Source: Cliona cf. orientalis | Lineage: Eukaryota; Porifera; Demospongiae; Clionaida; Clionaidae | NCBI GenBank assembly: GCA_963930775.1 | Contig: OZ005691.1 | Coordinates: forward strand, 6,755,000 to 6,818,999 | Length of the DNA stretch: 64,000 nt | Direction: 5' to 3' | Part shown: positions 19,901 to 33,897 of the stretch, in pieces | How positions within the stretch are numbered: position 1 is the first letter of the stretch | Layout of the letters: every line of letters begins with the position of its first letter | Made by a program: the position numbers and the translations under genes | Notes under the pieces: model-generated | Databases searched by the model: none | The model's input: only the letters and a program-made list of their open reading frames with translations | What the model was told of the DNA's origin: nothing

Positions 19901-22900
19901 TACCCAACTTGTACCATGGGCTACATGGCCCTGATAACACATCTACGGCCTTAACAACTACAGCGCCGGCCATAAAGGCTCAAGCGTGTACCTTAAGCAA
20001 CAGTTCAAAACATTATCATAGATATTAATGCATAGTAAGCCAATGCCGTCTTCTTCCTTGACATTCAGAACCACAATACTATCGTCGCTGCATGCAAAAG
20101 GCTAGCCATGTCATCGCTGTCTTCAGGGTTTCATTTAGGGAGAGTAGCCACCATCCATACACGCAAATACATGTACATGTAAAAAGTTCAAATGGTGAAA
20201 GTGTCCAAAGCGGCAGTTTTGCTCATATTTAACACATACATGTAAACTAGCTGAAGTTTCGTCCTACATGTATAGGTTACATCACGAGGTGGAGGTCTCT
20301 ACGGGATTTACACACCGAGGGCCGGAGGCCCGAGGCTGTGTAAATCGCGTAGAGACCGAACCAAGTGATGTAACCGACTTGTACCATGGGCTACGTGGTC
20401 CTGACAACGTATCTACGGCCTAGCAACTACAGCGCTGGCCATAAAAAGCTCGAGCACGTACCTAGCAACAGTTCAAACCATCGTCGTCGATCGAGTCGAC
20501 GCTGGATATCGATGCACACGCCGTTTTCTGTCCAACTCGAGCTTCTTCCTTGACATTCAGGACCACAATACTATCGTCGCTGCATATAAAACTTGAAAAG
20601 GCTGGCCATGTCATCGCTGTCTTGATTTCAACTCGAGGTAGTCAGAGTGCAGCTCAGTTTGCTGACTTGGCAATCGTTCGCTCCACCCATTCAATTAACG
20701 CGGTAAGACCTGCCCACTAATCATCTGCATACAGTACTCTGCATAGCAATAGAGCTCTGTACTTTACCTCTTTCACTAACAAAAGATGCTGTAACTGCCC
20801 TAGCAGGCATGATCATGTAAAATTTCATAGCCTCAGAGGTAGGTGACTATCTAGATAGACACCTCCTAGGAGGTGTCTATTTTATTTAGACACCTCCTAT
20901 AAATCAATCTGATTGGTCAGAATGTTACAACCATGGTACAAGCAGTAGGAGACACATCCGTGCAACATTTGACTATTAACATCATCATGGATAGTCTTTG
21001 CCCCCCTTTAACTCTGCAATTGTCGTGTTTGCCCCCTTGACAAAAATCCTAAATGAAACCCTGGTCTTGATTTCAATTCGAGGTAGTCAGAGTGCAGCTC
21101 AGCCTGACTTGGCAATCATTCGCTCCACCCATTCAATTAACGTAGTTAAGACCGGCCCACTAATCATGTAAAATTTCATAGCCTCAGAGATACATGTAAG
21201 GTGTCTAAATATTTAGACACCTACAAGTATCGGTTACATCACAAGGTGGAGGTCTCTACGGGATTTACACACCGAGGGCCGGAGGCCCGAGGCTGTGTAA
21301 ATCGCGTAGAGACCAAACCGAGTGATGTAACTGACTTGTATATGTGTACCATGGGCTATGTGGTCTTGACAACGTATCTACAGCCTAGCAACTACAGCAC
21401 CAGCCATAAAAGGCTCGAGCGCGTACCTAGCAACAGTTCAAACCATCGTCGTTGATCGAGTCGACGCTGGATATCAATGCATAGTGAGCCAACGCCGTTT
21501 TCTGTCCAACTCGAGCTTCTTCCTTGACATTCAGAACCACAATACTATCGTCGCTGCGTACAAAAGGCCGGCCATGTCATCGCTGTCTTGATTTCAATTC
21601 AAGGTAGTCAGAGTGCAGCTCAGTTTTAATGCTGACTTGGCAATCGTTCACTCCACCCATTCAATTAACGCAGTACGTAAGACCTGCCCACTAATCATCT
21701 GCATACAGTACTCTGCATAGCACTATAGCTCTGTACCTTGTCTCTTTCACTGCTGTAATCAAACAAAAGATGCTGTAACTACCCTAGCAGGCATGATCAT
21801 GTAAAATTTCATAGCCTCAGAGGTAGGTCTAGACACCTCCTAGGAGGTGTCTATTTTATTTAGACACCTCCTATAAATCAATCTGATTGGTCAAAATGTT
21901 ACAACCATGGTACAAGATTATTTAGACACCTCCTACAAAGCAACCTGATTGGTCAGAATGTTACAACCATGAGAGGCTGTACTCTCCTTCACCATTCTAT
22001 GACCCCTTCATGCTTGCAAGGGCTGCCCTTTCACGGCCCTACTTATGACACACACATACTCTACATATACCGGTACACGAGAAGCGACCCCCCCCCCCCC
22101 CCCAATTATTCCGACTTTCTATGCAAGTAGTATACAGTGAGCAGTGTTCTCCCCAAAGGCATGTCAGCTCAATAAGCCTTCAGTACAGAATTCCCTTTGA
22201 CGTGGAGAATGGGAATAACACAAAAGCTTTGAAGTGGCTACAGGCTCCACCCACACATGCCCTCCTATCATGTCTTGAAATTTACTTGAGAATACTGGTG
22301 AGGTGATGAACATGTATATGCCTACCATGCAATACTGTACCACCTACATGTACAAAAGTATCCTCGACAGAACTCACCTGCTTGCCAGTAGAGTCAATGA
22401 GTGGCCTTGGCTTATACTTGAGAGTTGGACGTTGTGACCAGTACAAGGGAATTGATCCACGAGTCTGAAACACATACCACACAGATAATTATTCTTAAAT
22501 TCCAAAAGCATCATAGCATAATAATAATATTATGCTGGAGACCTGATGCTAAGTATATAAGGCTTGCTTGCAATTGAGGTTAGCATTTTTAAAAACCCAC
22601 TAGCAGAAATACCGAGATAAACGAGCACCAGGAGGGGGTGTTATTCATGATATACAGAAATGTTGTAGCATCTTGGAATAATTATTATAGCAAACTTTAG
22701 CAAGGCTTTAATTTGGAAATTTGATAAATTTTCAAGTCACAAAATTCAAAATCACCAACCGATTTAAATAGCTATTTTGCCCACTTTAATGTTGGCCATA
22801 TGCTTTCTGCTCATATACATAACATAGCAGAATATTATGCAGGTAAAGGTCATCAACAGGTTCATACGTGCTGCTACAGCTGTGCAGGGTGCAGATGCGG

Positions 22901-25900
22901 GTACATGCATGTACATGTATGTGCTCTATAGAGCTACAATTTCAATTTTTGTCTGGGGTTGGCCCACTAACCATCTACACAACCAATAAACCATTCCACT
23001 GTTGAATATTATAGTCATAGCCATCGCGTTGATTCCCATCTTGGCCTACAATCATATTATATCTACATTGTTGTAGGTTTACGGCAGGAACCTGGATGAA
23101 CTGCCTGTGCAAATGTACCTACGTGTATATACAATCACCTGCAGGGGTAGATCCAGGATCTATCAGAGGGGGGTTTAAGCCACGTCCACTTCGCTCATTG
23201 ACCATGCCCATTTCTCGCTAGATTGCATGTTTGTGGTCTGTAATGCTCTCAAAGACTTCAAATCGACCAAATATTCACTAAGAAACATCCAAGTAGGTGA
23301 GCTAGAGGCAGAGGCTTTAGTACTGCAGCTAGCTAAAAGGAAGGGGGTTCTATGAAACCTAGATTCTATACTACTACACAGGCTAAGTCAGAAAGGGAGG
23401 TTCGTCCGAACCCATCGAATCCCCTCTGGACCCGCCACTGACCTGAACAAATGATGCTCGATAATCACAATATATCATCATCTGCTCTGTTTCCACATAG
23501 TTAGCAACATTCCCATCATCATCAACACCACGAATGAAGTATCGAACACCTGTAATAAATAAAAATTAAACAGGTAAAGCACATAGATAAAGCAGAAGAA
23601 CTTATAAACATGATATTGTACATGTACTGACTAACCAGCTCTAAGTGCACTTCTCCTGGAGATTAGAATAAAGGAAAAGCGTTTGCTATTTATCTCAACT
23701 GCACTGACAGAAACAAAGCCATGGATCATGGGAACAATGAATCTGCGGAGCTCTGGCTGTACAACAAAGTCTCGAAGAAGATGTGCATTCCAAACAAATC
23801 GTTCATCAGCCCGTTCAAACAGAGACAGTTGATTGAACTGTGGCTTTGTTTGGAGGAGGTGATGCTTTCGCTGAAGAGAGTGGGTCAAATCATATGTATT
23901 GGAGTAGTAAAATCCAGGTGTTGCAAGCACTCTCTTGATCATAGAGAGATATATCTGATTATCCCGATCCTGCAGTAAGTAAACCCCTCCATGGACAAAT
24001 TTTCACGCTGATCTTTGTCATGTTATGTATATTACTTGGTAAAACTCTGGAGTTTCAGACATGTACCTACAGAGTTTCATGAGCACCCTGTACCCTAGGA
24101 CTAGATATACATGTACATTGATAACACTTTGGATGGTATACAAATTTCCTCCAGAATATGTATGATCCAATTTAACATACGGAATAAGGTTTATGAATTC
24201 TCATAACGTGTATGTATGGAGCGATTGACAACCTTTACTAGAAAAGCGCACATTTTGAAATTTCCATTCGTTAAGTTGGTAATAGTACTACCTGGCTATA
24301 AGAGAGATGAATGGTGCTTTTAGAGAATGGTATGACATCAAAGCTGGTTATGCAGTATACTGCATGTCCATCAATACTTCCAACCAGGGACTTATCAGTG
24401 GCAATAATAAGGTAGGGACCTGAATAATAATTATTATAAAAAAAATATTATGTTGTACACATGTATATGCAGATACAATAATAATTTCGTTCCATGGCTG
24501 TAACATTCTGATCAATTATAGGAGGTCGACGTCTTGGCAGATCAATAAAATTATAATATTTATCCACCTACGTGTATACTTCTGAGGCCATGAAATTTTA
24601 CACTGCTACATGCACGAGGAGGCGGGATATAAAAGGGCCAGCCCTGGACGGAAGCAATGTTTATTTTACCACATCCATCACATGAGCCAATATGGCTGTA
24701 TTACAAAAATTCGCGAGTTGACTGCCATGGCGCCAGCTATTTTACACATGACAGACTATATAGTCACAGTATAGTACAGAACAGAGCAAACCGGTGTTGG
24801 CGCCATAGCGCAAATATAAAGAAAGCGCGAGATACACCAGAGACACCTTTTCGAAGGCACCTGTAAGGAAAAAATGGCTACTTTGAATGAGCAGAGAAAG
24901 AAGCGCGCGAGAATCGGATTTCGCTACACAATGGAGCTGAACTTTGCCAGTGACGATAGCAAGAAGGCGTTCTTGTCGAGGGTGGAGAGCCCTAAGCAGA
25001 GACTCGCTCCCAGACGCTCACCGCCACTGGACAGTTGCGAGCTACCTAGCTCTCTATTGGATATGGCTGAAGCCACTTCTCCACCTGCATGCTACCATGT
25101 GCACTGGAAATCAGTTTCGAAGCCAGGCAGTCCCTACAGGATCTATGACAATGCTGGAAAACTCAGGTGTGTATTAGATACATGTAACTAGCTTGGTCAT
25201 AAACAACAAACTGTTGTGCTTTAGGATTCTTTGTACCCGGTGATGAAGGCAATGATGAAGCCCAATCATCGTTTGTGAGCGCAAGATGTTTGAGGGTCTT
25301 TGCGCTGGGCTCACAAACCATGTCAGTGCCAAGCTAGTGCACGAAAGATGATCAAGACTGTTCAGGTGTGCATAACCCATTCAAGTGAACTCACCAAGTA
25401 TTTAGATGGTGTTTATGCATGTACCTCAGAGAGGACATGTCCTTCGTGTCGAGTTTCAGTGTCAGCAGTGTAATGAAAATGCTGCTTAGCTGTACTGGGG
25501 GTCCCGGTGACACTTGAAAAAGCACTCTCTGCACCCAGACTAGGAAGATATGAATTTCTATCAATATTTGTTGTAACAATAGTAGTACAGCTATCTTAAA
25601 TTATAATTGGCTCCATAGTGCTTCAGAGTTCAGTCACTTTCGACATCACGAGCATTATTTAGAACATCGACGATCTTTACCAGTCATATAATTGGCCACT
25701 TAGTTGTGCACATGAACAGAAATCACAATGGCCATGCATCATGCATTGTGGGCACTGTCAATAGGCGTGGCTACGGTGGCCAATAAAAAGGCACTATTTG
25801 TGACGCTCGTGGACCTTATCCCTCGATTTGATGCACTCTGAATCCAGTTTTTCGAATTCGATTAATTCGTTGTCTTTACGAGTCATTTATATCTCGAGAT

Positions 25901-28900
25901 ATGTCGATTTTTGTGCTAACGACAACAACAATGACGACGACACGACCGATTACTTTACCCCCTTGTGCATGCGCGCGGGGTAATAACAATACAATGATCA
26001 TCACTAATCAAACAGCAAACAGCATATAATATGTATAGGTTATATCATGAGGTGGAGGTCTCTACGGGATGTACACACCGAGGGCCGGAGGCTCGAGGCT
26101 GTGTAAATCGCATAGAGACCGAACCGAGTGATGTAAACGACTTGTACCATGGGCTACGTGGTCCTGACAACGTATCTACGGCCTAGCAACTACAGCGCTG
26201 GCCATAAAAGGCTCGAGCGTGTACGTAGCAACAGTTCAAACCATCATCGATGGACATCAATGCATAGTGAGCCGACACCGTTTTCTGTCCAACTCGAGCT
26301 TCTTCCTTGACATTCAGAACCACAATACTATCGTCGCTGCGTACAAAAGGCCGGCCATGTCATCACTGTCTTGATTTCAACTCGAGGTAGTCAGAGTGCA
26401 GCACAGTTTTTACTACTGCTGACTTGGCAATCATTCGCTCCACCCATTCAATTAATTAACGCATCAAGATCTGCCCACTAATCATCTGCATACAGTACTC
26501 TGCATAGCATGTATTTTATCTCTTTCACTGCTGTAATCAAACAAAAGATGCTGTAACTACCCTAGCAGGCATGATCATGTAAAATTTCATAGCCTCAGAG
26601 GTACACGTAGGTGTCTATCTAAATAGACACCTCCTAGGAGATGTCTATTTTATTTAGACACCTCCTATAAATCAATCTAATTGGTCAGGATGTTACAACC
26701 ATGGTACAAACAGAGATATACCTCCTATTAGATGTATAATTCCAACAAGTGTGCAAATATCCGTTGTACTTGTGTCATGTCCAGAAGGAACACTGCTCTT
26801 ATCTGCAAGTAACATAATATCATCATAGAGTCGGTAGACTCTATAAGTAGGGATGGCCCGGATATGCCATATATGTAATACATTACAAATACCCAAATAT
26901 CTCAAAATAGGTAATTTTGTGAAATTTCTAAGTGTGAAAATCAGAATCTCCAGCAAATTGCGCATCTAGCAAGACCAAGATTATTCATCAAAACAATTGT
27001 ACATGCCAGAACAAGAAAGAATAGCCCATTTCTCATTCTTTCTTTCTTTCTTTCTTTTTCATTATCAGGGCTAACTCAAGACTGTCTGGACCGCTCGCCT
27101 TAGTTTTCATATAAATCCACTCTATTTTGTAGCACGCAGGTCCATGGCACGTTTATTTGGCGTTATCTCTACAGCTACGTATACGAAATGGTGGCGGCGC
27201 ATTAACTAGTGGGTGTGTCTGATACGCCATTTTGTTATACAATGCGCATGCTCAGAATATGTTGTCATGGTGAAATCATGTGACTACGGTCAGGGGCGTG
27301 GCGCGCGCAATGCAGCATGAACTGCAATACCGAAACGCGTACAATGTAACTGGCCTGGCTCGAGCTCGATTGCTCAGCGCTCAGACACTCGCGGCGCTCA
27401 GTTCTAGCTTCGAGCTAGGCGCCAGGCTCTCCTGCGCGAGCTAGCTATAGCTTAGTTAACTAGGCCAGTGCGAGCTGAGCGCTATACCGGCAGTGACCTA
27501 GGTATCAAGAGGCTTCCAGCCTCAGCAATCAGCACTGCCACTGATATTAAACAAGCCAGTTCACAACTTGAAGAGACACACCGCTACCTGGGCAGCCTTC
27601 TTTGTCAGCCACCTTGAAGGGAGTGGCTAAGACTTTGCGCGCACGTGCAAACTTCGGTACCTCCCATCTACTACTACTTAATTACACTGACAGTTGAATG
27701 AGCAAGCCATTTAAGATGGCATTGATAAATATGCTAAGAGCAATAAAAAAGAACAGAAACAAGTATAAAAAAACAATAAAATTGAAGGATGAAGTAGGGA
27801 TGGCAGGATCAAAAAGTACACAAACAAGATTTGTAAGGCATAAGCATCTGCTATACATCCCTACACTTGCTTTTTGAGGGGTGCAGAAACTAAGTGCAAC
27901 TGAATCAAAACTGACTATCCTGAACCATTGTGACAACCAGAGAACAACCTGAATGTCTCCCACATGCCACACTCGACAAATACATCAACATTAATAGCTA
28001 GGTGCATAATAATTGAGAAAAGCAAGCGAAGGGATGTATAGCAGATGCTTATGCCTTACAAATCTTGTTTGTGTACTTTTTGATCCTGCCATCCCTACTT
28101 CATCCTTCAATTTTATTGTTTTTTTATACTTGTACTAATATTGTGCATTTCTTGCTTGTATCATCAAGGGTGGGATCGCACTACGTCCAGGGCTGCATGC
28201 AGCTGCAATCAATCTTGAAGAATAATCTTATAATCTCACCAATTATATTGACCCTTCACCCAATGATTAAACGAGCATGCGCCGTATAAAAGGGGCGTGG
28301 TCAGGCCAAAAAATGTCATTCGCTAAAATTTTGAACTTACAAAATGGCTGCCTTCTGCCAAGTGACCGTTCTCGCACTTTTACACCCATAGACACACACT
28401 AACAACTGTCAAAAACGCGAATAAAAGCAAGAGCGCTCCAAATAGAACTTTCTGCACGTGTTCGCATATTATTTGTTTCGAAGCTGATCTGTGATATAAT
28501 GTCGAGTTCTAATTCCTCCCGAAAGCGTCATCGCTTCACTCTACAAGCGACTTTCTCGACTTACCGGGAGAAGGAAGCCTTTGAGCGTCGATTTGAGGCC
28601 GTTTGCAAGCTCCTACAACCCGTAGGAGCCCCCACTCTAGACAATCACGGTGTGTTATGCGCCTTGTTGGATGCGGTAGAACGGAATGCGAGACCACAGG
28701 ACAATTCCCCGGGTAATGAGCGCGTGGAAACAAGGAGCTTTCTACGAAACAGTGGTAAGGCTGAGTATGTGCAGACTATATATGATAGCTATGTTCAAGT
28801 GTGTATGCATCACATAGGAGTGTATGTAAGTGATGAGCACCAGGAAGACCAAGCATTGTTTGTGACCGAAGAGTGCTGTTTTTCTGACCTGGTTGAAGGA

Positions 28901-31900
28901 CTCTGCTCCCCATGTCCCTGTGGGCTGACAATAAAGCCATGGGCTGTGGAGTCTATCAAACAGGTTACAATATTGTAGCGTCAAGTATAGCAAGCTGTTT
29001 GTCATGATCTTCTTGTCCCATAGAAAGGTCATGTGTTGCGTGTGCTGTTCTCTTGCCGCCGTTGCCATCGGCAAAGGAGGACATGGTCAAGTTCAAGAGT
29101 ACTCAGTGGGCTCTACTTAGCTAATCAGAAGTAAATTTTAGTGTCGAGTAGAGTGGTTATATTACCGTTTGTGTTGTTGTAGGTTGGTTCATGGTTTCAC
29201 TTGCGCTGGTGTGTTGCCTACTCAGTACATCAACTTTTCCAAGTTTTCAGGCATGGGCAGTGTTGGACATGGCTACATCAGACAAGGTAATTGTCATGCA
29301 TATACACTGGTTTATTTCAAGAATTCAATAACATTTCAGTATACAATCGCCGTGGGTACATTGGCATAGTGGATCGTTTGGCCGAGCAATTCATGAAGAA
29401 AGCAGTGGAAGAGGTGGAGACCCTCCCAGACTATGTAACAAAGGGAGAGGTTTGTATAAACGTACATGTACATGTATACAAATGAGTGATGTTCTATGTT
29501 CACAGTGGGTCATCACTGACGCCAGACATGACTCAACTGCTAATGCCTACCACACCACTGTGCCTTGCCTTTCTGGAAGGTGACAATGCTTTTCATTGAC
29601 AATACTAATTGTTTCTATTGTACCCTATGTACATACAGTACCATGAAGATTGTTGGCATTTCTACCATTTCGCGAAGTGAACATCATGTGGCCCAAACTC
29701 GTGAACTTGAATGCACTAAGGTAGTTGTGCCCCAAGTCATTGCTCGAGGTAGGTTATATACAATGTGATGTATACTATAATGTGTTGTGTGTATGTGTAT
29801 AAAATTTGTGTATGTCCATCCAGGTTTGAAAATCGTTGAGATTGCACATGATATGCAGCTTGCTGTTGGACGCTATGTGAAGCAAGATCTCAAGCTCCTC
29901 AACTCCTTTGACACATGGCATGGTACGAAATGGATGGTATACTTTATATTTGAATTGATGCGACTACACCATTGTGTGTAGGAACCAAGAATGTTGCCAA
30001 GGAGCTCGCCAAAATCACCAAGGGCAGAGTAAGAGATCGTGATGTGACATGGTTTACTGAGCTTACGGATAAACGTATGCCACTTGTATGTACTGTGTAG
30101 TTATGTGGATAATGTAGTGTACTTTTTCAGGAAGAAGTATTAAAATTCATCTCTACTGGGCCATGAAAAACTGTGGTGGATGTTCAGATGCTCTCCGCAA
30201 GCTCATTCTCAACATACCCAACCATTATATGGTATTAGCAGTCGTTCGTCCTACGTCATACAATATGGAAGCTGTTCACGTATATATATTTACTTACAGG
30301 GAATCCACTCTGACTGCCATCCAAGTTCGTCATGTCATGATCCTGGATACATTCCCAGTAGGCTGGAGCTCACTAACCCTCAAGCATGTCAGGCACTGCT
30401 CAAAGGTTTGAAGGACACCTACGTGTACCGCTATGCCGATGACTTCTGTCGGGTATGTATGGTTTTCACAGTCAGTCCTCTTGCAATATTTAGCTTATAT
30501 TACATGTATACAGTGTCGCGACACTTACTGGGTGGAGAGTTTCAACCACCAGCTGCTCACATACTTACCGAAGCGGATTCACTTTTCCACCAGGGTGTTC
30601 AATATGAGAATGAACCTCGCAGTGATGGACTGGGTCAGATGCATGATTTATGCTGTTTGTATCTTTATATCTATATCGTTGTAAATTATGCAGAATGAGA
30701 ATGTGAATCGCACTCATACCAGTGTACACAAGGTGAAAGACCTTCGACGACCAGACAGGCGTACACCTATGAAGGTCCTAGTGGAGAAGACGTTCAAGTT
30801 TGTTGAGCTTGTGTGGACAGCATATGTTGATGACAACAAACCCGACATCAGGTATGTATCGTACATCATCCTATACTTTATATATTTATTATGTGAAAAT
30901 TGTTTTTTATCTTTAGAGAGATTGAAGATGAGGAGACTGAAGATGAGGAGACTGGTGACCTAGATGGAGAAGTTGACGATGGCACACTTTTATCCGAGGC
31001 AGAATCGGATGACGACTAAGCAATTTCACAAGACTACATGTATGTATAATATTATGTCACTGACTGATATGGTGTTACTGGCTCCACTTGCATATACTTT
31101 TGTTGCTGTTTAGGTTTATGTAATATGTATGTGCACTGACCTCACTTTCTCACCGAGTCCATACCGACCTCCTTGCCCACAGGACAGTATTGCTGATCTC
31201 ATCCACACAGGATAGTGCTATGATATTCGTATTCCCCCCCCCCCCTGTGCTATATTATTATGATATTCGTATTTTGCCCCCCCCCCCCCCCCCCCCGTGC
31301 TATGATATTCGTATTGTGTGTCCCCCCCATTACAGTGTTATGATATTCTTATTGTGTGTCTCCCCCAGCAGTTTCCCCGGTGACTACCATAATTATATCT
31401 CTTGCTTAAATTTAATCAAGTGCACTTTCAGCTTCGAAAGTAGACATATAATCTTTATATTCGCCATCATGGCTAGGATATCTTCTTCTGATTTCCTATA
31501 GACAGAAACATTATATTACCTATTTGATACAGTGCAATCCTTGCTTACTGTAATGACACATTTCGGAATTATTTCCCTCTTGTCTGCCCTTAGAGTTCTC
31601 CGCTCCTTTCTCAGGAGGTACTCCTCATCCTGGAAGACGCCGAGAGTGTTGAGCAACTTCCAAAACGCTTTGTACAATCTGTACCGCTTCTCATCATTCG
31701 CCGGATGGGGACCGCAGGCGCCGCGCAGGAAGTCAGGGGGCAACGCAATGACGCAAGGGGAACACAAACAGTTGGGGCAATTATTCCTGCCACGAAGAAT
31801 CGGACAACTGCTTGACTGCCGATAGCCTTCGGGGTGACTCGGAAAGGTAACACCTAAAGTGTCATATATTTGAGTATATTTTTACTGAGTTTGTACATGT

Positions 31901-33897
31901 AGCTACCTGTGCTACCCTGCTGCTGGGTCTCATTGTCAGTGGATGGTGGCTCATCCTCCTCGAGACGTACCCATCTCAGTTGAACCGTCAAAGCAGGCAG
32001 CTGGCTTTCATGGACCATACGGTTCACACGCGATACAAAAACTTGAGGAGGAGTGTGTGTATATTCTACTTTCACCTAGTTTTAGTAGTTTTGTGTTATG
32101 TTTATATTATTGTTCTTGGTTATATGATAGTACTGCTATGAATATCTTACTGTAATCACTCTCTTGTCAGCTGATGAGGCCATACTAGCGGCAGCGTGAC
32201 AGGACGGTTGAAGGACTTCTGGTTTGTGTGCATGTGGCTGGAGTAAACACGTGTCTAAGCTAACAGAGCGTGTCCGATCCTGTTGCGCTTGCGTGTTGTG
32301 TAGCCTCGAAAGACAGAGAATCGCGGGCATTCTGGACTAGTTTTGAATTTGAAATTCATCCGCCATATTTATGCGCATGGTCAAGAACTTCCGGCCTGAC
32401 CACCCCCCTTTTATACTCCGCCCTCATTGATCGCGATTCGCGAAAGTAACGCGTACGTACGGAATATTTATTCAACACATGCTCGTTTAACTGCAAGTGC
32501 CACCCTGTAAATACACTGCCTGATCAACCACAGAGTCTAAACCATTTCATTGCCTTCTCACCCGGCCCAGTTATACCAGTGATTTCCCACCCTAGTCTCA
32601 AACCCCAGGCTCGCTTTCTGGGGAGGGGAAAGAAAGCCTGTCTGGGCATGCATCAAAATTTCCAGAAATCCTCTGAATTCATATTTTGTCTGTTTATTAA
32701 TGTGAACCTTGCTTGACCTCAGAAGTATGCTTAAAGATTGATGTTGACCACCGTTCAAGCTAAGGACGCTTGTTGTCACAAATTTAGCTATTCCAAGTGA
32801 GCAATAATAATATAGACAGAGAAACTAAAGAAGTTTCGAGACACTTCAATTATTCAGATACCAATTTTGGAAGAATGGAAATGCATGTACATGTAGCTAT
32901 GTTGTCGGTCTTATGCGAGGATGTAGCCCCACCCACCAGTGTTTCATTTAGAGGGGGTGCCCTAGATTTTCCCCCCTAAAGTATTGAGAAAAATTAATTA
33001 ATACATTACCAAATACCAGTTAACACTTACGATTGATTCACCTGTTTGACTGCTAAAAACACTAATTTTTGGTCAAAATATAATATAGACCCAAAATGTA
33101 ATCTCAGAGGTCTTAAAAGTAAGTTATTTTCCTTGGGAGGGGGTATGCCCCCCCCCCCCACGAAAAATCTTGCCCACGTACTAATTACAAACCGAATGCA
33201 ACCTTACATTTTGGAAATATTCTGCCAGAACACCAGCGTCCGAAAATTGCAAGTTTTCATCAATTTTCGGACAATGCTTAATATCATAGGCGCCCAGAAG
33301 CAGAGCCAGATATCAAAAGTGGATTGCAAGACTGTCAACTTGTTCATCTACCACATCTCTAAACCATGACTGCAAATGACGCCTTTTGCATTCCAATAGT
33401 GGTACTTTTATTATTTGCTCATTTTTTCAATCAAATACATGTATTAAATACATGTATGTCAGGTTTCTGAAGCTCAAGGTTTGTTTTAAGGAGATGAGAG
33501 CAAATGAAGTCTATACAACATTCTTTAGAATAAATTGAGTCCTTAAGCTTCATCGCTTTGGAGTGCTTAGTATACCTTGTCCGTACGTGTCTGACCACGT
33601 GCACATGGTAGCTCTTTCTCCTCCTGCTCAAAAGGCCAGGGTACAAGGCTATCCCGTCATACACAAGATCTTATTAAGCAATCCCAAATAAGCACAAGAA
33701 TATACTCACCAATTAGAGAAATATCGAAATTCAGTCGATCTATCTCCAAGGCTTCCCTTGAGCCAGTCCCAGTAGGCACTAAATAGAATCGATCACTGGA
33801 AGTTATCCTGCAGCAAACAGACGTTTCATATCTTCATTCGACACATAAAAATAATCCACCCTCACAGCTTTAACGCCTGATGGGTTAGAGGATCCAT
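13950..33897 (-). CDS. SACM1L: Phosphatidylinositol-phosphatase SAC1, 17 exons, complete
   Basis: Exons: 33897-33866, 33807-33710, 26802-26722, 24419-24292, 23969-23636, 23549-23443, 22464-22378, 19689-19621, 18673-18594, 18535-18437, 17902-17764, 17710-17641, 17281-17209, 17144-17051, 16944-16846, 16750-16690, 14080-13950. All phases close, giving 593 aa (human 587). The start [11 protein letters not shown] fits the short N-terminal strand of the family. The catalytic CX5R loop is intact in [10 protein letters not shown] (about residues 393-402). Two C-terminal membrane spans follow (about 531-550 and 554-575). The tail RLKTT resembles the KxKxx retrieval signal that keeps SAC1 in the ER/Golgi, with R at -5. 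SAC1 dephosphorylates PI4P at ER contact sites. Introns 2, 3, 7 and 16 are swollen by transposons and repeats, including a whole two-gene transposon in intron 2; exons look undamaged. Confidence 0.95.
14455..14720. repeat. Dispersed repeat with GATTCGAAGCATAATG, copy 2
   Basis: It shares ACCAAACGATTCGAAGCATA and the 'aaccctttgctgcgcatgcacacgtggggtaatt' terminus with 1490-1720 and 25735-25990. It lies in SACM1L intron 16. Confidence 0.65.
15480..15980. promoter_or_regulatory. GC-rich block with CCAAT and GC boxes inside SACM1L intron 16
   Basis: GATTGGTC and AATTGGTCAC (inverted CCAAT boxes) stand 5' of GGGGCGGGG. The adjacent 15700-15980 segment is GC-rich, with a 91-codon open frame on the minus strand that matches no family I recognise and has a possible donor (GTGAGG) near its end. 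It looks like a promoter or the start of an unrecognised gene or element nested in the intron. Confidence 0.35.
16041..16185. repeat. Degenerate CTAGTCTCG fold-back
   Basis: AGTCTCGTCCCCAGGATC / GTCTGGGGACGA pairs, and AGACGAGAC stands at the far end. It is related in style to 19243-19333. Confidence 0.5.
19243..19333. repeat. Short fold-back element in SACM1L intron 7
   Basis: The arms CTAGCCTCGTCCCCAGGCC and CGGGGACGAGGCTAG form a hairpin of about 90 bp ending in 'gtctag'. Confidence 0.75.
19812..20140. repeat. Palindrome-headed repeat, copy 1 (partial)
   Basis: It begins 'tataggttatatcacgaggtg', carries 'ctgtgtaaatcacgaagagaccgaaccg' and 'catgggctacatgg', and stops early compared with the copies that follow. 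Confidence 0.75.
20271..20950. repeat. Palindrome-headed repeat, copy 2 (about 680 bp)
   Basis: The head is a long imperfect palindrome: GGTTACATCACGAGG..GGTCTCTACGGGATTTACAC..GAGGGCC / GGAGGCCC..GTGTAAATCGCGTAGAGACC..AGTGATGTAACC. The tail has a second palindrome built on AGACACCTCCTAGGAGGTGT followed by TTTAGACACCTCC. No coding frame spans it. Confidence 0.85.
21226..21990. repeat. Palindrome-headed repeat, copy 3
   Basis: Nearly the same as copy 2 along its length, with an extra repetition of the tail unit 'TTTAGACACCTCCTA...GGTCAGAATGTTACAACCAT' at about 21919-21975. Confidence 0.85.
22086..22103. repeat. Poly-C run
   Basis: Uninterrupted run of C, about 18 bases. Confidence 0.9.
23144..23440. 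mobile_element. MITE with GGGGTAGATCCAGG ends in SACM1L intron 6
   Basis: The left side GCAGGGGTAGATCCAGGATC is mirrored by CCCCTCTGGACCCGCCACTG on the right. About 300 bp, no coding frame. Confidence 0.65.
24600..25600 (+). pseudogene. Partial relative of the TTAA-element transposase (N-terminal exons only)
   Basis: A TATAAAAGGGCCAGCCC box at 24633 precedes an ATG at 24874. The first exon (24874-25165) encodes a basic N-terminus and a [15 protein letters not shown] region that parallels the [17 protein letters not shown] region of the intact transposase at 28499. A second exon from about 25224 ([20 protein letters not shown]) and a third from about 25434 ([14 protein letters not shown]) parallel [20 protein letters not shown] and [14 protein letters not shown]. 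The third exon runs into a stop soon after and no exon for the catalytic part was found before SACM1L exon 3 at 26722. I read it as a truncated, diverged copy of a sister element. Confidence 0.6.
25735..25990. repeat. Dispersed repeat, copy 3 of the 1490/14455 family
   Basis: It ends 'ccttgtgcatgcgcgcggggtaataac' and carries 'atgtcgatttttgtgctaacgac', parallel to 'ggcgatttttgtgctgatgac' at 14615. Confidence 0.55.
26033..26705. repeat. Palindrome-headed repeat, copy 4
   Basis: The same head palindrome (GAGGGCCGGAGGCTCGAGG core) and the same tail (AGACACCTCCTAGGAGATGT) as 20271-20950. It ends immediately before SACM1L exon 3, at the 'accatggtaca' flank. Confidence 0.85.
27036..27060. repeat. 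(TTTC)n microsatellite
   Basis: About six TTTC units. Confidence 0.9.
27100..27680. other. GC-richer intronic block, no gene assigned
   Basis: Contains GGGGCGTGGCGCGCGC at about 27294 and repeated AGCGCTCAG/GAGCTAGC strings. The plus strand has a short coding-like frame around 27510-27600 ([16 protein letters not shown]), but no start, partner exon or family match is visible. It lies in SACM1L intron 2. Confidence 0.35.
27759..28134. mobile_element. Fold-back element with about 110-bp arms
   Basis: The left arm (27759-27875) reads ACAAGTATAAAAAAACAATA..GAAGGATGAAGTAGGGATGG..TTGTAAGGCATAAGC. The right arm (28022-28134) is its close reverse complement. One arm recurs at 8690-8805. The strength of arm pairing points to a fairly recent copy. 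Confidence 0.85.
28284..28310 (+). promoter_or_regulatory. Left-end TATA box / subterminal inverted repeat
   Basis: GTATAAAAGGGGCGTGGTCA is repeated in inverse orientation near 32395-32417. The TATA box is 210 bp upstream of the transposase ATG. Confidence 0.7.
28499..31019 (+). CDS. RNase H-like transposase of the TTAA element, 14 exons, 577 aa
   Basis: Exons: 28499-28754, 28818-28963, 29024-29130, 29183-29286, 29340-29449, 29506-29579, 29639-29748, 29824-29922, 29982-30074, 30131-30231, 30300-30452, 30514-30633, 30694-30851, 30917-31019. Every junction has GT..AG and phases close. Intron 1 (28755-28817) is optional in that both spliced and unspliced frames are open. The N-terminus has Cys pairs CSPCPC (115-120) and CRRC (145-148), a likely zinc ribbon. 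The catalytic core has VITDARHDS (D246), IVEIAHD (D312), FDTWHGTKN and [11 protein letters not shown] (E459), with a following [10 protein letters not shown]. This order matches a large family of animal proteins often labelled P2X7-like or uncharacterised, with a DDE fold. The C-terminus is an acidic tail. I infer it is an active or recently active transposase. Confidence 0.8.
31225..31372. repeat. Minisatellite TGCTATGATATTCGTATT + C-run
   Basis: Four diverged units of TGCTATGATATTCGTATT/TGTTATGATATTCTTATT, each followed by a run of 7-20 C. It lies between the 3' ends of the two convergent transposon genes. Confidence 0.85.
31412..32330 (-). CDS. P2X7-type C-terminal (ballast/zinc) domain protein of the TTAA element, 245 aa
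   Basis: Exons: 32330-32151, 32075-31907, 31853-31549, 31495-31412. GT..AG borders and phases close. The product starts [20 protein letters not shown]; the first 115 residues are low-complexity, Ser/Gln-rich and unlike known domains. The C-terminal half has the Cys cluster CPNCLCSPC (142-150), C163, then [21 protein letters not shown] (C215) and, in the last exon, [16 protein letters not shown]. This is the spacing of the cytoplasmic zinc-binding ballast of the P2X7 receptor, which ends in an IPxCxxxxIRxxFP-type motif. There are no membrane segments, so this is not a receptor. The gene faces the transposase and starts next to the right end of the element. Its role in transposition is unknown; nucleic-acid or chromatin binding through the zinc cluster is a guess. 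Confidence 0.8.
32394..32418 (-). promoter_or_regulatory. Right-end TATA box / subterminal inverted repeat
   Basis: Reverse strand GTATAAAAGGGGGGTGGTCA pairs with the left-end copy. It stands about 65 bp upstream of the P2X7-domain gene ATG. Confidence 0.7.
32491..33709. other. SACM1L intron 2 right part, no gene
   Basis: A short C-run lies at about 33150-33160. It holds a few hairpin-like stretches (32594-32645, CTCAAACCCCAGGCTCGCTT) and no supported coding exon. Confidence 0.4.

Follow-up and report, generated by a model that had tools for sequence, protein, structure and literature searches.

Structure of the unit

The window, that is, the whole 64,000-nucleotide stretch analysed here, contains a unit of 4,224 bp, counted with both of its TTAAs, which extends from the TTAA at positions 28267-28270 to the TTAA at 32487-32490 and carries two convergent, intron-rich genes. 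The span of 28271-32486 given in the original prediction is the same unit minus its TTAAs. The left end reads TTAA-ACGAGCATG and the right end CATGCTCGT-TTAA, the outermost nine bases (28271-28279 and 32478-32486) being terminal inverted repeats, as defined from the sequence and from a search of the genome for these ends. Just inside each end lies one half of a subterminal inverted block of 29 nt with 90% complementarity, at 28279-28307 on the forward strand and at 32393-32421 on the reverse strand; both halves contain TATAAAAGG, with TATA at 28285 and 32415, respectively, and the start codons of the two genes are located 214 and 232 bp inside these TATA boxes. The TTAA-bounded ends, the inverted TATA-bearing block and a complete element enclosing both genes had been predicted at this locus, and all three are present. 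Both TTAAs are assigned as the target-site duplication from the sequence and from the empty sites of the family described below, the site of the window copy not being among these.

The gene for the transposase is found on the forward strand at 28499-31019 and comprises 13 predicted coding exons (28499-28963, 29024-29130, 29183-29286, 29340-29449, 29506-29579, 29639-29748, 29824-29922, 29982-30074, 30131-30231, 30300-30452, 30514-30633, 30694-30851 and 30917-31019), whose joining across 12 introns, all of them GT-AG and in phase, gives a protein of 598 aa. The second gene, here called KolX, lies on the reverse strand at 31412-32183; its four predicted exons (32151-32183, 31907-32075, 31549-31853 and 31412-31495), also joined in phase at GT-AG introns, encode 196 aa. 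The introns of the unit measure 52-75 bp. Fourteen and four in-phase exons had been claimed for the two genes; the in-phase joining and the four exons of KolX stand, but the transposase has 13 coding exons rather than 14. Positions 31234-31330, which lie between the genes, contain poly-C tracts together with short repeats.

To the left of the element, exons encoding a SAC1 domain (Syja_N) are present on the minus strand at 22366-23969. Motif searches did not find the upstream first exon of this SAC1-domain gene, and the predicted placement of the unit inside an intron of SACM1L was not confirmed.

The transposase

According to Kojima & Bao (2022; PMC9587614), Kolobok elements are recognized by a TTAA duplication, a DDE transposase with a C/DxxH signature, a zinc finger between this signature and the catalytic E, and 5'-RR...YY-3' termini; the C/DxxH signature is common to four other superfamilies besides Kolobok. 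As judged from its motifs and profile matches, the protein of 598 aa belongs to the DDE transposases of Kolobok type, in line with what had been predicted. The Pfam scan of the spliced protein matched PF20700, “Mutator-like transposase”, with 28 bits against a cut-off of 26.5. The putative catalytic aspartates, assigned by motif, are residues 267 (VITDARHDS, 29518-29520) and 333 (VEIAHDMQ, 29850-29852), all positions here being on the forward strand. Between the second of these and the putative catalytic glutamate, residue 480 (WVESFNH, 30535-30537), lies DTWH as the C/DxxH signature (residues 353-356, 29910-29921); the glutamate was assigned by motif and by profile alignment to the transposases that accompany canonical ballasts in the same genome. 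Two candidate zinc motifs, NCGGC at 401 and DCHPSSSCH at 426, are found between DxxH and E, where the Kolobok zinc finger sits.

The relationship to the transposases beside canonical ballasts is visible in the comparison of C-terminal profiles, in which the window type (two sequences) matched the canonical-ballast type (three sequences) with a probability of 98 and an E-value of 1.7e-13 over 159 columns. By sequence, two canonical-ballast-side transposase loci match the window type weakly (E 9.6e-4 and 0.028). The window family was absent from the 59 hits of a PF20700 search of the genome, its match to this model requiring the spliced protein.

The second protein as a ballast relative

The 196-aa protein is, on profile evidence, a divergent relative of the P2X7 “ballast”. 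In the Pfam comparison, the window KolX alone reached 21.7 bits (E 2.2e-4) over 28 residues near its C-terminus, below the P2RX7_C cut-off of 23.5 bits, and the ballast label therefore needed the support of profiles. Nine of ten window-type KolX proteins match P2RX7_C when E-values up to 1 are allowed (best 6.1e-5). An hhalign comparison of these ten, which align well with one another, against six canonical ballasts of the genome gave a probability of 95.7 and an E-value of 9.1e-9 over 42 columns. The first alignment was built from nine of the 12 retrieved loci plus the window copy, leaving out L064, L069, L072 and the diverged L030, and the second from six of the 30 P2RX7_C loci. This second set matched solved P2X7 chains with an E-value of 2.6e-21; no PDB chain was matched by the window KolX on its own or by the profile of the window-type group. 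The predicted ballast relative is thus borne out by profile comparison, but not by the Pfam score of the window copy taken singly. The ballast similarity of KolX that characterizes Kol0 elements is likewise seen in the profile comparison and in the linkage described below, and is weak in the single-sequence score, which lies under the cut-off.

The homology is confined to approximately the last 40 residues and the cysteine motif. The window KolX has seven cysteines, and just four cysteine columns are invariant in the ten window-type proteins; a CC pair shared by all six canonical ballasts is absent from these ten. The seven or eight zinc cysteines in three clusters that mark the P2X7 ballast (the ZCD of PMC7016195) were not found as such in the window KolX, and the cysteine pattern suggests that window-type KolX proteins may have one zinc site instead of two. 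The predicted fold of KolX exon 3 alone reached a pLDDT of 41. Searching viral contigs with the KolX alignment gave 69 pattern matches, none of which was a relative. In three proteins with a canonical ballast (L034 1036-1878, L038 1492-2532 and L041 1489-2193), cysteine-rich stretches occur upstream of the ballast; they match no Pfam model above its cut-off and possibly represent a DNA-binding domain.

Copies of the element in the genome

The 13-base end of the element occurs 22 times in forward and 19 times in reverse orientation in the 216.8-Mb genome, while the reversed-letter control gave 5 and 1 matches. Among these 41 matches, 32 make up 16 pairs spaced 4.1-4.9 kb apart, and two more form one pair separated by 8.2 kb. 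The matches correspond to 24 loci, all of which were retrieved, and 19 of them are near-complete copies; the search for further copies with the same ends, proposed with the original prediction, thus had a positive outcome. The five others are three loci without a body (L026, L029 and L032) and two diverged ones (L025 and L030).

The suggestion that the element may be mobile is strengthened by the youth of this multi-copy family: for six of the 19 copies, the nearest copy is just 2-3 substitutions away, positions 31251-31346, which overlap the poly-C tracts, being excluded from the counts. Eleven of the 19 copies show no stops and no indels that break a frame; one of these eleven has lost a KolX splice donor, so that both frames and all splice dinucleotides are intact in ten. 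These ten include two copies with in-frame deletions, one whose length is greater by about 320 bp, the break being located in intron 1, and one with an incomplete right TTAA. Splice dinucleotides were conserved in 565 of 570 checks over the 19 copies. L023 was scored as disrupted on account of an insert of 222 bases in its exon 1.

Substitutions within the family look neutral (33 replacement to 13 silent changes in the transposase, 13 to 7 in KolX), as is expected for changes that follow insertion; purifying selection inside the window family was not seen in the substitution counts of either gene.

Several of the other loci retrieved are of an unusual structure. L025 (301-9900; G000:C16:5181038-5190937) is a near-perfect inverted repeat of about 8.2 kb, both ends of which are the right-end sequence of the family at 84-85% identity, and it is explained by a foldback element or else by an effect of the assembly. 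L029 and L032 (position 1001 in each) have family-like left ends with no transposase or KolX match within the 6.7 kb retrieved, and they are possible non-autonomous derivatives. In the diverged L030 (1001-5317; G000:C10:3047496-3054200), the KolX exons are on the opposite strand amid the transposase exons, that is, nested and not convergent, and the right end is without the terminal sequence of the family; C1:23262794 is a second locus with a similar non-convergent order.

Insertion at TTAA

For 17 copies, the 60 bases on each side were joined around a single TTAA and the genome was searched with the resulting junctions; L027 and L031 were left out, one end of each being incomplete. Among the best 40 of 1017 candidates, at least five of the 17 junctions (L016, L019, L020, L022 and L023) match unbroken repeats from end to end with 97-100% identity; 29 of these 40 matches belong to the site of L022, and the junction of the window copy is not among the five. 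Since the empty sites carry one TTAA, the element duplicates it. The window family thus inserts at TTAA and duplicates TTAA, sharing this Kolobok trait through the single-TTAA unoccupied counterparts of these five junctions. A one-sided boundary between L015 and L013 was suggestive as insertion evidence and has been superseded by these empty sites.

Linkage of KolX and the transposase

Apart from the 19 KolX loci of the window family, the genome contains 53 KolX loci of other window-type families and 30 P2RX7_C loci (32 hits, 28 of them over the cut-off). For the KolX count, 72 of 108 rows were taken, the 36 dropped being further pieces of loci already counted. An exon of a Kolobok-type transposase is found within 4 kb of 90 of these 102 KolX or ballast loci, and in 88 the arrangement is convergent; none has same-strand hits only. 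By class, linkage was found for 27 of the 30 P2RX7_C loci, for all 19 of the window family and for 44 of the 53 other window-type loci (42 of them convergent), whereas the simple chance of linkage is about 0.4% per locus. Conversely, 16 of 106 transposase loci, which were counted mostly as one piece per locus, have no KolX within 4 kb, a figure in which transposases far from KolX are under-sampled, the queries having come from KolX-bearing units.

The two genes therefore travel together in many related units, as the original prediction required, and in this genome most of the ballast loci found are transposon parts. The other 12 loci, which lack a transposase hit, could be remnants of broken units or genes that have been domesticated. 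Three of them are P2RX7_C loci (C1:21809103, C1:13519952, which is below the cut-off, and C1:32702327), which are truncated or possibly domesticated.

Relation to known elements

The arrangement of a transposase with a ballast-domain partner had been thought not to be described, which is wrong. Kojima & Bao report that Kol0 Koloboks, with sponges among their hosts, encode a transposase and KolX, that KolX has the cytoplasmic ballast of P2X7, and that P2X7 arose by fusion with a KolX, the likely origin of its tail (PMC9587614). Both the pairing of the genes and its link to P2X7 are thus already published, and the element, although real, is for the most part as expected. Among the open-licence PMC papers listed for KolX, the ballast and Kolobok, we saw no other on the pairing, and none that addressed the role of KolX. 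Rump et al. (2020; PMC7016195) described ballast proteins from a range of animals, a sponge among them, and found none outside animals; the word “transpos” is absent from its text. PMC9859053 describes the function of the nucleotide and zinc sites in the P2X7 ballast as unknown.

Like the Kol0 Koloboks (Kolobok-1_XT type), the window unit has a TTAA duplication, a DDE transposase with DxxH and a ballast-related KolX gene. The restriction of the ballast to animals in PMC7016195 makes an animal host probable, and the short introns and the hosts listed for Kol0 are compatible with a sponge. However, the termini of Kol0 elements are RR...YY, while those of the window unit are AC...GT, and the double-cysteine pair is missing from its KolX. 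The TATA-bearing subterminal repeats are a feature of the window unit, and they are not mentioned for Kol0 in the sections of PMC9587614 considered here. The core IPxC...IRxxYPxxxGxY is shared by the window KolX with the P2X7 ballast and nanor (PMC7016195), from which it differs in having no channel fusion and a different set of cysteines.

Two groups of termini coexist in this genome. Both ends of the window family start with TTAA-ACGAG, as does the sister family L063 (L075-L078), in which the left end of one copy is TTAA-ACAAG; neither family has the 5'-RR and YY-3' termini of Kolobok. The canonical-ballast Kolobok-type families (e.g., L033-L041, L043 and L051-L058) share convergent genes and a homologous transposase with the window unit, but their ballasts have WCxC and CC clusters, and their KolX-side end is TTAA-AG, following the RR rule, in six of ten pair comparisons with a clean boundary. 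AG-starting ends and TTAA duplications have also been described for Koloboks of Xenopus, one side of one element being ATAA (PMC6004289). Because RR termini are a defining feature and were not found here, we call the window unit a Kolobok-type variant and not a standard member. The new aspects, which are modest, are the AC (ACGAG) termini of this sublineage and a KolX without the double-cysteine pair.

Overall, the window unit is very probably a cut-and-paste DNA transposon, complete and mobile until recently, of the Kolobok kind that carries KolX, and within it represents a sublineage of its own.

A possible mechanism and the role of KolX

The mirror-image subterminal repeats suggest how the element may work. 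Each gene would be read inward from the TATA box of its repeat, which the symmetry of the two blocks makes likely. The DDE transposase would then cut the TTAA-flanked ends and join them into a new TTAA; with the duplication and the young copies observed, cut-and-paste at TTAA is highly probable, its chemistry being inferred. It may be speculated that transposase bound to the ends would also mask the TATA boxes and might thereby reduce the expression of its own gene.

Evidence of purifying selection on KolX comes from comparisons between families only. For exon 3, dN/dS was 0.05, 0.05, 0.06, 0.09, 0.13, 0.14 and 0.21 in seven of 13 between-family pairs, the values being rough in the four of these with dS above 2; the remaining six pairs, including all five with the window copy (pN 0.20-0.43), are saturated in dS. 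This conservation argues that KolX works for the element, which it probably serves, most likely in transposition. Since selection keeps it beside the transposase in many families, we somewhat favour a role for KolX as a transposition partner; it would most likely be a protein with a single zinc site that assembles with the transposase or with the subterminal DNA.

Purifying selection and frequent linkage would fit equally well with a KolX that faces the host, for example by countering silencing or by acting in transcription, and that is kept because copies bearing it spread better. The extra cysteine-rich stretches of the canonical KolX proteins L034, L038 and L041 agree with this, as does nanor of the zebrafish, a likely domesticated KolX (PMC9587614) for which a role in transcription has been hypothesized (PMC7016195); nothing in the present analysis points to a host target, however, and we regard this explanation, the main alternative, as rather unlikely. 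It is very unlikely that the second protein is unrelated to the ballast and its match convergent: the short match of the window copy just under the cut-off and the lack of a PDB match for the group profile would be explained, but the P2RX7_C matches of nine of the ten window-type proteins, the significant profile comparison, and a position and orientation identical to those of the partner in canonical-ballast units all speak against it. Least probable of all is the reading of the unit as piggyBac, or as a third TTAA superfamily, with an acquired KolX-like gene. The TTAA target shared with piggyBac and the termini that are not RR could suggest this, as could the small number of piggyBac families whose KolX-like C-termini are without most of the seven cysteines (PMC9587614). 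Against it, piggyBac has another transposase, and the window transposase contains DxxH, matches PF20700 as well as the transposases next to canonical ballasts, and in its Pfam scan gave no match to the piggyBac model DDE_Tnp_1_7 (PF13843) at E-values up to 1; in addition, none of the 102 KolX loci lies within 6 kb of the best 116 of 414 piggyBac candidates. Most of the piggyBac matches listed are on C1, a possibly repeat-rich contig that accounts for 37.5 of the 216.8 Mb.

Returning to KolX as a transposition partner, we put forward tentatively the possibility that the elements with ACGAG ends form a sublineage apart, either sister to Kol0 or nested within it, in which the termini changed and the ballast was cut to one zinc site while KolX was kept as an essential component. 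The discovery is a modest one, since the pairing and its link to P2X7 can both be found in print. Nevertheless, a young multi-copy Kolobok family with KolX and open frames makes the need for KolX in transposition and the role of its cysteines testable, and the presence in one genome of two groups that differ in both their termini and their ballasts provides a natural comparison. If the proposal is true, ballast proteins would be true transposition subunits in which end recognition co-evolved with the termini, and these elements would offer a direct assay for the original role of the P2X7 ballast.
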